24,468 nt of DNA, from IMG/VR virus record IMGVR_UViG_3300030101_001918, positions 1-24,468 of that record. The stretch is one strand, 5' to 3'. The DNA comes from a virus. The notes beneath the pieces were generated by a model. That model did no database searches and was not told where the DNA came from. It worked only from the letters and a program-made list of their open reading frames with translations. Made by a program: the position numbers and the translations under genes. Positions 17,293-24,319 of the stretch are shown one piece after another (position 1 is the stretch's first letter; each line of letters starts with the position of its first letter).

Positions 17293-17466
17293 ATGACTGA
17301 TATAAGCAAATATAAAAATGTATCACTGCCAAAAGATACATATAATAAAATAGATAAGATAAGGAAAGTTATTGTACCTGAGATGACAATTAGTAGATCT
17401 CAAACGATAACATTATTAGTAAATGAGAAAGAGAAGAAGTTAAATGGCAGACTCAAAAAAGCGTAA
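17293..17466 (+). CDS. Ribbon-helix-helix-like DNA-binding protein (57 aa)
   Basis: Seen: YKNVSLPKDTYNKIDKIRKV is a beta strand then helix, followed by PEMTISRSQTITLLVNEKEK, the strand/turn/second helix of a ribbon-helix-helix fold, and a basic tail. Length and order fit MetJ/Arc-type repressors. AAGGAG lies 10 nt upstream. It starts a run of overlapping small genes and could repress its own promoter at 17228 or that of the divergent secreted protein; this is inference. Its 3' end overlaps the zinc-finger gene by 23 nt. Confidence 0.65.
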   Translation: MTDISKYKNVSLPKDTYNKIDKIRKVIVPEMTISRSQTITLLVNEKEKKLNGRLKKA

Positions 17467-19399: not shown

Positions 19400-19687
19400 A
19401 TGAAACGTCCCAAAAAATCTAAATATAAGTCTGTTGTAATCAAGAAGAAGCGATACTACTTCTACGAGATAACTTGGATTGATCCGACAGGCGATTCGGG
19501 GCATGCCACACATTTTGATTCATATGGTTTAGTGCCATCTACAATGATTACTCACGCTTACCTGTTTGATAAAAATAAAAAATATATTTGGACTTTTGCA
19601 TCTTATGAAAAAGGCGATGAGTTATTTTCAGACCGTAATGTATTTCCGAGAGGTTGTGTACTAAAAATGGAGAAGGTTACTCTTTAA
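19400..19687 (+). CDS. Small phage protein (95 aa), unknown
   Basis: Seen: MKRPKKSKYKSVVIKKKRYY is very basic, followed by YEITWIDPTGDSGHATHFDS, a beta-rich middle and IWTFASYEKGDELFSDRNVF, PRGCVLKMEKVTL. I chose ATG 19400 because the frame upstream runs through the A/T palindrome and low-complexity DNA. The WTFASY...FSDRNVFP block looks conserved-type and recalls marine phage proteins of unknown role. Its last 11 nt overlap the convergent small terminase gene. Confidence 0.65.
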   Translation: MKRPKKSKYKSVVIKKKRYYFYEITWIDPTGDSGHATHFDSYGLVPSTMITHAYLFDKNKKYIWTFASYEKGDELFSDRNVFPRGCVLKMEKVTL

Positions 19688-20165
19688 TAAGTTTAGTATC
19701 TGTAATTCTTTGTTCGTTTAATTCTTTAAGTCTTTTTATTTCAGCCTCTCGTTCTTTTAAATCAGTTGCACTAATATTTACATTGTAATTAGTTTCACTA
19801 AACTGCCCTGTAGCTTTGCCAATTAAAGTTTCAAATCCTAATGCCTTATCTATTTTACCATCATCAACCAGCTTTTGTGACAACACTTGTTGTCTTCTAA
19901 CATAGTTGTGTTTGGTAACAGCAAAACCTCTATTAACCTCAGCAGATCTTTTTGCGATGTACGCCTGGATTTTAGGATTTTTTAATAGCCTCCAAGCTTC
20001 TTGTTTAGCACCTACTTCGGAGTATCCAGCTTTAATAGCAGCGTCTTGATGAGTAGTTCTGCCTTCATTGAATATTAAATACTCGCAGAATCTTCTTTGC
20101 ATAGCTGTAAGGCCATCAGATTCTGTTATATTTGCTGCCTCTTTTTTGACTAATTCTTGGCTCAT
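19677..20165 (-). CDS. Terminase small subunit
   Basis: Recognises the phage genome for packaging and hands it to the large subunit. Seen in 162 aa: LTAMQRRFCEYLIFNEGRTT and QDAAIKAGYSEVGAKQEAWR form the Terminase_2-type helix-turn-helix, followed by LLKNPKIQAYIAKRSAEVNR, a central oligomerisation-type helix region and a charged C-terminus (KEREAEIKRLKELNEQRITD). It is on the minus strand while other virion genes are on plus, and no large terminase is in the window. Its ATG lies six bases after a TATATT -10 box with no ribosome site (predicted leaderless). Convergent with the 95-aa gene. Confidence 0.87.
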   Translation of the reverse strand: MSQELVKKEAANITESDGLTAMQRRFCEYLIFNEGRTTHQDAAIKAGYSEVGAKQEAWRLLKNPKIQAYIAKRSAEVNRGFAVTKHNYVRRQQVLSQKLVDDGKIDKALGFETLIGKATGQFSETNYNVNISATDLKEREAEIKRLKELNEQRITDTKLIKE

Positions 20166-20447: not shown

Positions 20448-20813
20448 CTGAAACCAGAGGCTAAATTATATAATGATCTTAAAAAAAATATTAGAAGCAT
20501 ATCGTGGATTAGGCTTGAAAACCGTAGTTTACTCGGTACTCCCGATCTATTGGGTTATTCTCCTAACGAGCACTTTTTTACATTGGAGTTAAAGTTTACA
20601 TCTGCTTACCGAGTACGCTTTTCACCCCACCAAATTAGCTTCCATGTGAAGCATCCACAGAACAGCTTTATTCTTGTTGCTTGCACCTTGGAGCTTGGGA
20701 CCTGCCGCTTGTACCCTGGCTCGAAGATTCTGGAGCTTGTGCACTCTGGCTTGAAGCTTGAACCCTTGGCTCTGGGGTGGGATGCTTGTCGCCTCCAGCT
20801 TGAGAGCTTGTAA
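20448..20813 (+). CDS. VRR-NUC-like PD-(D/E)XK nuclease with a CTG start
   Basis: Probable structure-specific or Holliday-junction-type nuclease. Seen: numbering from CTG 20448 (121 aa), LKPEAKLYNDLKKNIRSISW, then ENRSLLGTPDLLGYSP with D33 and FFTLELKFTSAYRVRFSPHQ with E47-x-K49: a complete GTPD...ExK site, with SPHQISFH following as in VRR-NUC phage proteins. An in-frame TAG lies at 20430-20432 and no ATG, GTG or TTG precedes the GTPD motif; GAGGT sits 7 nt before the CTG, so CTG initiation is the best reading. A TTG at 20550 would cut off the active site. The last 45 residues are encoded by a degenerate GCTTG repeat array and are probably not functional. Confidence 0.78.
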   Translation: MKPEAKLYNDLKKNIRSISWIRLENRSLLGTPDLLGYSPNEHFFTLELKFTSAYRVRFSPHQISFHVKHPQNSFILVACTLELGTCRLYPGSKILELVHSGLKLEPLALGWDACRLQLESL

Positions 20814-20868
20814 GCTTGCGACCCTGCTTCCTGAGCGCCGCGTAATATTTTGGGTGTCTAAATACCAT
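20668..20868 (-). CDS. Small basic protein with repeat-encoded tail (66 aa)
   Basis: Seen: MVFRHPKYYAALRKQGRKLT is a plausible folded or basic head; the remaining 45 residues are Ser/Gln/Ala/Pro-rich low complexity (SSQSAQAPESSSQGTSGRSQ) because they read the antisense of the GCTTG repeats. The gene starts in a TAATG overlap with the stop of the Gp88-family gene, so it is translationally coupled. It overlaps the convergent nuclease gene by 146 nt. I recall the FRHPKYYAA head in other marine phages with variable tails. Function unknown; the tail probably varies freely. Confidence 0.6.
   Translation of the reverse strand: MVFRHPKYYAALRKQGRKLTSSQAGGDKHPTPEPRVQASSQSAQAPESSSQGTSGRSQAPRCKQQE
20679..20818. 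repeat. Degenerate heptamer-phased GCTTG repeat array
   Basis: GCTTG occurs ten times, starting at 20679, 20693, 20707, 20735, 20749, 20756, 20784, 20798, 20806 and 20814. Steps are 14, 14, 28, 14, 7, 28, 14, 8, 8: the first seven are multiples of seven. The array is GC-richer than the genome and lies inside two convergent overlapping genes. Confidence 0.8.
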
Positions 20869-21473
20869 TAGTGTTTACCATAACAGACGTTAGGTGTTGA
20901 CCTGTCCCAGCACGCGCGACAGCTGCCGCACTCGTTGCCCTGATCTGGGGCCGGGCAAGTACGCTTGTTGTCCTGGCTGGATACAGTCGAAGTCCATGGC
21001 CATTGCTTCACGGGTCCCTGGTTTATCATGTGTGAACTCATTCTAATGATTAAATTTGGCGGAACTGTGTCTGGATCAATATCTTTTAAAAATTGCGCTT
21101 CTCTAGTTGGCATCCAGTGCTGGGTCTGGGGTGTACGCTTGCACACTATAAAAATATTTTTTAGATGCTCCAGACTCTGGATGTCTCCTGAGTCATGCCA
21201 TCTAAACCAGTCCTGGTCCTTGATCAGTGTTACCATCGCATCAACCCAACGCGGGTCCTCCAACGCTTGCAGCCTTCGCTGCAATGCTGCTTGTACATTC
21301 TTGAATCTATATCTCCCCTTCAGGGCATAACAGCCAGCGCAGACGCTGCCTGGTATCTTCACCAGCTTCGCGCCAGTCTTACACGCCACGGCCGGCAGGT
21401 TGTGAGCTGGTCCTGGCATCTTCGACGGCTTCGACAGCCCGCCAGTTATTTTCCTTGCTTCTTTTTTTAACAT
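20868..21473 (-). CDS. Gp88-family phage protein (cysteine-rich, 201 aa)
   Basis: Seen: GGLSKPSKMPGPAHNLPAVA then CKTGAKLVKIPGSVCAGCYA, the signature of the Gp88 (gene product 88) family, with C31, C45 and C48. Later come WFRWHDSGDIQSLEHLKNIF and WMPTREAQFLKDI, and a second cysteine cluster (TCPAPDQGNECGSCRACWDR). The cysteines suggest an Fe-S or zinc site. The family is known from mycobacteriophages and others but its reaction is not established to my knowledge. AGGAGG lies 5 nt before ATG, with a TTGACA-17-TATAGG promoter just upstream. The gene is much more GC-rich than the rest of the window, hinting at separate origin. No truncation seen. Confidence 0.85.
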   Translation of the reverse strand: MLKKEARKITGGLSKPSKMPGPAHNLPAVACKTGAKLVKIPGSVCAGCYALKGRYRFKNVQAALQRRLQALEDPRWVDAMVTLIKDQDWFRWHDSGDIQSLEHLKNIFIVCKRTPQTQHWMPTREAQFLKDIDPDTVPPNLIIRMSSHMINQGPVKQWPWTSTVSSQDNKRTCPAPDQGNECGSCRACWDRSTPNVCYGKH

Positions 21474-21491
21474 AATATCCTCCTATAAATT

Positions 21492-21520
21492 CCTATATCA
21501 TCTGGCTTGTAACCTGTCAA
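21492..21520 (-). promoter_or_regulatory. Promoter for the Gp88-family gene
   Basis: Minus-strand TTGACA (complement of 21515-21520), 17-nt spacer, TATAGG (complement of 21492-21497), predicted start near 21485, so the message would begin right at the AGGAGG site (21479-21484). The -35 box lies inside GCTTG repeats. Confidence 0.62.
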
Positions 21521-21542
21521 GCTTGTAAGCTCGAGCCCTGAA

Positions 21543-21570
21543 GCTTGGACCCACACAGGCGGGCCCACCC
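21543..21570 (+). repeat. Variant copy of the heptamer plus GGCGGGCCCACCC element
   Basis: GCTTGGA (21543-21549), then CCCACACAGGCGGGCCCACCC (21550-21570 in total), similar to the 34-bp tandem units at 21916-21983 but with one heptamer and a changed middle. Confidence 0.6.
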
Positions 21571-21915: not shown

Positions 21916-21983
21916 GCTTGTAGCTTGTAGACTATGGGCGGGCCCACCCGCTTGAAGCTTGTAAACTATGGGCGGGCCCACCC
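21916..21983 (+). repeat. Tandem pair of 34-bp units (heptamer doublet plus GGGCGGGCCCACCC)
   Basis: Unit 1 is 21916-21949 and unit 2 is 21950-21983, directly adjacent and differing at two positions. Each is GCTTGWA-GCTTGTA-RACTATGGGCGGGCCCACCC (two heptamers plus a 20-nt block). A TTGACA lies at 21910-21915 just before unit 1. The rest of the gap to 22005 is A/T-rich. Confidence 0.85.
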
Positions 21984-22005: not shown

Positions 22006-22045
22006 CAACCCTAGATTGTAGACATAACAATACAATCTAGGGTTG
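22006..22045 (-). terminator. Rho-independent-like terminator of the 124-aa gene
   Basis: Perfect 15-bp stem CAACCCTAGATTGTA (22006-22020) / TACAATCTAGGGTTG (22031-22045) with a 10-nt loop, 20 nt after the stop of the minus-strand gene. Read on minus, it is followed by seven A and then T6-C-T8. The U-tract comes a little late for a classic terminator. Confidence 0.65.
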
Positions 22046-24292: not shown

Positions 24293-24319
24293 GCTTGAAA
24301 ATTATGGGAGGGCCCACCC
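24293..24319 (+). repeat. Third dispersed copy of the GCTTGAA plus GGGAGGGCCCACCC element
   Basis: GCTTGAA followed by AATTATGGGAGGGCCCACCC, the same heptamer plus 20-nt block as at 21916-21983, about 2.3 kb away and in the same orientation, in non-coding DNA. Confidence 0.75.

Follow-up and report, generated by a model that had tools for sequence, protein, structure and literature searches.

The window analysed here is a virus record of 24.5 kb (24,468 nt). Its DNA polymerase shares 64.5% identity with the enzyme of Pelagibacter phage HTVC027P and 61% with that of phage 023Pt_psg01, and by sequence comparison it comes from a marine phage with relatives among the viruses that infect SAR11 bacteria. 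A locus with repeated copies of the pentamer GCTTG adjoins the small terminase gene (Terminase_2; minus strand, 19677-20165). The gene order at this locus is a nuclease-like ORF on the plus strand (20448-20813), then a 66-aa ORF (20868-20668), a GP88-family gene (20868-21473; family match to PF17338) and a 75-aa ORF, all three on the minus strand. The comparison set consisted of 80 viral contigs carrying GP88, and the evidence in this study is comparative throughout. An Rfam search of the window returned no match.

The initial annotation had described a heptamer-phased GCTTG array between the two convergent ORFs, read as protein on both strands, and both observations were confirmed. Within 20668-20868, GCTTG is the commonest pentamer of the array stretch and starts on the plus strand at 20679, 20693, 20707, 20735, 20749, 20756, 20784, 20798, 20806 and 20814. 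The first eight of these ten copies are in phase with one another modulo 7, and each of the last two comes after an 8-bp step. Dinucleotide shuffles of the stretch contained a mean of 1.4 copies, and none of 20,000 reached ten copies or eight in phase. This array, designated array A (20679-20818; GCTTGNN on the plus strand, CAAGC on the minus strand), begins within the nuclease fold, supplies approximately the last 44 codons of the nuclease and extends beyond its stop codon (TAA, 20811-20813). Read antisense, it supplies the tail of the 66-aa ORF.

Array A is one of several GCTTG sites at the locus, and the others (21505-21547, 21916-21961 and 24293) are non-coding. The sites of array B (plus strand, 21505-21547) are distributed over the GP88 promoter and the DNA upstream of it, and the palindrome-like GGCGGGCCCACCC (21557-21570) follows them. 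Array C (plus strand, 21916-21983) is a 34-bp tandem repeat composed of two GCTTG heptads and GGGCGGGCCCACCC, and site D (plus strand, 24293-24319) comprises one GCTTG and GGGAGGGCCCACCC. Near-palindromes of the GGGCGGGCCCACCC type were found beside GCTTG sites at 21557-21570, 21936-21949, 21970-21983 and 24306-24319; they also occur in most close relatives, often paired approximately 27-37 bp apart. HTVC027P has three arrays at places matching those of the window. In near-complete relatives of 57-59 kb, GCTTGNNGCTTG is confined to this locus of approximately 2 kb and to a single strand.

Ahead of its conserved core, the nuclease ORF contains none of the codons ATG, GTG and TTG. It likely starts at the CTG at 20448-20450, because this codon aligns with the ATG or GTG that precedes KPE in relatives and is located 8 nt after GAGG. 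A structure model of the window protein, built from 22 sequences, had a mean pLDDT of 91.8, and its array-coded part was modelled as a strand (85-89) and two helices (90-102 and 110-118) with pLDDT values of 94-97. The best Foldseek match of this model was A. fulgidus Hjc (E 5.8e-4), with VRR_NUC 4qbn lower in the list. A profile search of solved structures with the nuclease alignment gave no significant match. GTPD and ELK are conserved among relatives, as the initial annotation had expected of the GTPD/ExK core, and the predicted fold together with this GTPD...ExK core is that of an Hjc/VRR-NUC-type PD-(D/E)XK nuclease. In the model, the tail forms a well-ordered portion of this Hjc/VRR-NUC-like fold.

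The distance from GTPD to the stop codon is exactly 92 residues in 54 distinct nuclease sequences including that of the window. Loci outside this set, for the most part in more distant relatives, have truncated nucleases or tails whose length ranges from 91 to 102 residues. In eight of these 54, the FRHPKYY 66-aa ORF is absent and another gene or none follows GP88. The tail is conserved in pattern too, both with and without the 66-aa ORF. Array-free or array-poor relatives (two loci) have a homologous nuclease tail; therefore, the tail predates the array and was not added by the repeats. The initial annotation had proposed that both genes absorbed the repeats as disposable C-termini, forming an expandable junction with tail lengths varying in 7-bp steps. 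For the nuclease, this proposal failed: the tail is conserved across relatives, the coding array showed no such steps and homologous tails exist where the array does not. Because the tail has one length in the 54 sequences, is homologous in array-free relatives and is modelled as ordered, it is, as far as prediction can tell, neither low-complexity nor disposable. Rickettsia palindromic elements are DNA repeats inserted in ORFs, read as protein, which lengthen the proteins concerned. Unlike these, the phage repeats appear to have recoded a pre-existing tail of fixed length rather than lengthened it.

We examined GCTTG in the 54 nuclease genes, which are related sequences with counts that are not independent: 422 of 528 copies were in one 7-bp phase, and these 422 were distributed over codon frames 0, 1 and 2 as 108, 119 and 195. 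When synonymous codons were permuted so that the protein was preserved, 4.2 GCTTG were expected in the tail against 9.3 observed, and the observed number was higher in 54 of 54 genes; this null begins from amino acids that the motif has already shaped. Some relatives show a register swap from GAT GCT TGT (DAC) to GAG CTT GTG (ELV), in which GCTTG has moved by one base and is kept, with three residues changed. Where GCTTG is read in frame as GCT TGN, the base that follows was T in 80 cases, C in 35, G in one and A in none, such that the TGA stop is avoided. By these comparisons, the constraint on GCTTG is one acting on the DNA, because the 7-bp phase crosses all three codon frames, whereas protein constraint alone has a period of 3, and because GCTTG exceeds the protein-preserving null.

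Neutral heptamer slippage, by which the array would be a microsatellite tolerated by the genes, was already disfavoured and is highly improbable as an explanation. Uniform spacers in bacterial arrays (described below) would agree with it, as would a few 7-nt gaps that stood alone in the non-coding array, all found in pairs with one locus in a thin comparison of 21 pairs. In the phages, however, the spacer dinucleotides are mixed and vary freely while GCTTG is fixed, the nuclease tail has a fixed length and a predicted structure, and in the 400 kb of P. putida scanned, such arrays were formed by no other pentamer family.

The minus-strand 66-aa ORF starts at the GP88 stop codon (TAATG at 20868) with the conserved head FRHPKYYAALRK, and its tail runs antisense to the nuclease and array, with an overlap of 146 nt between the two ORFs. 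Members of its family are 53 to 85 aa long. The head (HPKYYAxLRK) is well conserved, as had been anticipated, and the ORF is therefore probably a real gene. The overlap changes among relatives mainly by 21 nt (125 versus 146 nt), because the minus-strand ORF stops at different points; a step of 21 nt preserves both the codon frame and the heptad phase. Enumeration of CAAGCNN arrays gave zero stop codons in any of the three frames, a property common to 248 of 1024 pentamers and not peculiar to CAAGC. Within the 146-nt overlap, variation in the 66-aa frame was highest at the second codon position (0.65) and lowest at the third (0.39), the opposite of the pattern in the head (0.83 at the second and 1.18 at the third position), in a descriptive test of 24 related rows. 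Because this variation fits protein selection on the nuclease strand alone, the minus-strand tail looks like passive read-through, and for this C-terminus the initial annotation is supported to that extent.

In five relatives, the small gene after GP88 is swapped for unrelated ones (MTDKQKE..., MIKLFYDYK...), and the nuclease tail and array are kept. This interchange of unrelated small genes beside a persistent tail and array suggests that the site downstream of GP88 is a cassette site.

A sigma70-like GP88 promoter is predicted on the minus strand at 21492-21520 (TTGACA-17-TATAGG), with CAAGC immediately upstream of the -35 box; it is a consensus match backed by position and conservation. A TTGACA-like/TAT promoter was present in 66 of 77 distinct GP88 upstream regions, and CAAGC was near all 66. 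It abuts the -35 box (CAAGC/TTGACA) in 50 of them, overlaps it as TTGA(CAAGC) in 11 and is nearby in five. Thus, in 61 of the 66, CAAGC either adjoins the -35 box or overlaps it, a promoter overlap of the kind found in omega-type arrays. In all six phage sequences examined that carry arrays, the GP88 promoter was the only consensus promoter with at least two CAAGC just upstream. In the transcriptome of HTVC027P infection, gp33 (GP88) and gp34 cluster on their own, with high expression at 6-9 h (PMC12753301). It weighs against the operator-like reading given below that array A is approximately 700 bp away from the GP88 promoter and has no obvious promoter of its own.

The reading that we tentatively prefer, with a probability of roughly 0.4, is that the GCTTGNN ladder is a multi-site, operator-like protein-binding array of the GP88 unit that overprinted the nuclease end. 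The ladder (CAAGCNN in the sense of the unit) would belong to the small minus-strand transcription unit, consisting of GP88 and its neighbours, near the small terminase gene. The part against and across the GP88 -35 box would most likely be an operator or activator array, to which a small protein may bind cooperatively with one unit per 7 bp. We infer this binding, and the regulation of GP88 that it may exert, from the arrangement of the sites. Array A would be an extension of the ladder into the convergent nuclease gene, the end of which may have been recoded to hold GCTTG in three codon frames with its length and fold retained. The 66-aa ORF would read through array A because CAAGCNN never gives a stop codon. 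The locus looks like a clear example from nature in which a DNA signal has been forced onto the folded end of a protein, with an antisense ORF following passively, and it offers a testable promoter/operator in abundant ocean phages of poorly known regulation.

The closest worked-out parallel is omega (ParB of pSM19035). Omega is a ribbon-helix-helix (RHH) protein, of which each dimer binds one of 7-10 consecutive 7-bp repeats that overlap promoters; these heptads (5'-WATCACW-3') are non-palindromic, and adjacent units are bound far better than single ones (PMC9499535). Like the omega parS/operator sites, the phage ladder consists of contiguous or near-contiguous, non-palindromic 7-bp units, with several copies per cluster and overlapping promoters. 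It differs in its motif, in that each unit combines five fixed bases with two free ones and in the same orientation of all units of the locus, and its binding protein is putative. Heptamer direct repeats (TAACTGA) also lie between genes in marine Beggiatoaceae, where a function has been suggested for them but not proven (PMC4679880). Those repeats differ from the phage ladder in having a fixed 7-bp unit of another sequence, and in occurring in a bacterial genome rather than at one phage locus.

The window also encodes a 57-aa RHH-like protein (plus strand, 17293-17466) that is a candidate array binder. Its model has an extended N-terminus and helices at 14-27 and 35-49, and its fold matches were weak: the best Foldseek hit had an E of 4, and VIA gave a Z of 4.4 to the RHH regulator Reg576. 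Pfam RHH_1 was matched in one of 28 family members, and a profile search of solved structures with the RHH-like alignment gave no significant match. The N-terminal segment KYKNVSL is almost invariant among 62 distinct close homologues. Among 12 records, the gene was present in all nine with arrays and in none of three related phages without phased arrays; in a second set, it was present in 11 of 12 array-bearing records, the twelfth being a fragment that stops short of where the gene would be expected. The same presence/absence pattern was matched exactly by two other window genes, one of which is the small terminase, and nearly by three more, and at least two RHH-bearing contigs had no array within the sequence read. 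Because of these two observations, the co-occurrence is weak and serves as a lead only, and binding of the ladder by this protein is speculative.

Iteron origins and phage pac sites, such as P1 pac, are short repeats clustered near terminase or replication genes. The phage ladder resembles them in that its short repeats are clustered at a single place in the genome close to a terminase gene, and it may be part of a replication origin (iterons) or a pac site; the small and large terminase genes flank it, and an AT-rich stretch and a 15-bp inverted repeat are close by. The direct repeats on the same strand within a single locus of approximately 2 kb per genome, beside terS, agree with this idea, and so does the contig position of the locus, which differs among near-full-length relatives as circular permutation would have it. 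The inverted repeat is also in its favour. This perfect repeat, CAACCCTAGATTGTA, has a 10-nt loop, lies at 22006-22045, just past array C and an A/T run, and may be a terminator or an origin-like feature. On the other hand, 023Pt and HTVC023P have related polymerases and no phased heptads, a departure from iterons and pac sites, and the GCTTG/GCTCG words that 023Pt_psg01 (L166, 15390-15490) carries at the same place follow one another around GGGCCCACCC in steps of 4 and 8 bp, not of 7 bp. Moreover, the small terminases of array-bearing phages are as low as approximately 30% identical while the motif is constant, and GC skew gave no origin signal. We regard an origin or pac role as quite improbable.

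The same repeats, (GCTTGNN)n, are abundant in the genomes of P. putida, P. abyssi, Stutzerimonas and Alcanivorax. Their abundance in Pseudomonas and Alcanivorax counts against the operator-like reading, since it argues for a cause more general than one phage regulator. A four-unit scan of one genome per species in 84,980 bacterial and archaeal species yielded at least 118 stretches, with many phyla among the matches listed. Four gammaproteobacterial genomes had 42-133 four-unit matches per strand, against 0 in the read-backwards control. In 400 kb of P. putida, GCTTG/CAAGC alone among pentamer families formed arrays of at least four units in 7-bp steps, other pentamers being sub-registers of these; the arrays are often located shortly past an ORF end or occur as inverted pairs. 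Literature searches for the repeat strings, pelagiphage heptamers and GCTTG tandem repeats found nothing relevant, and this pentamer ladder, recurring in unrelated bacteria, was not found named in the literature searched.

On these grounds, the phage arrays may be a copy of a broad, undescribed bacterial (GCTTGNN)n element near gene ends, with CAAGC in the sense strand past the stop codon. Such an element would work by way of a conserved host factor or at the RNA level and not through a phage regulator. Several P. putida arrays begin 5-35 nt past an ORF end as CAAGC, although the ORF calls are rough, and the GP88/66-aa unit likewise has array A at its 3' end, with CAAGC in sense. We consider this origin of the phage arrays doubtful: the phage ladder is anchored at a -35 box, which is a gene start and not a gene end, and spacers are mixed in phages but often uniform in bacteria, as slippage there would give. 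Rather unlikely, in our judgement, is the broader proposition that (GCTTGNN)n is one undescribed prokaryotic DNA element, common to SAR11-type phages and distant bacteria with common recognition machinery, which in the phages was overwritten on a structured nuclease C-terminus in three codon frames. Some of the bacterial arrays occur as inverted pairs approximately 60 bp apart.
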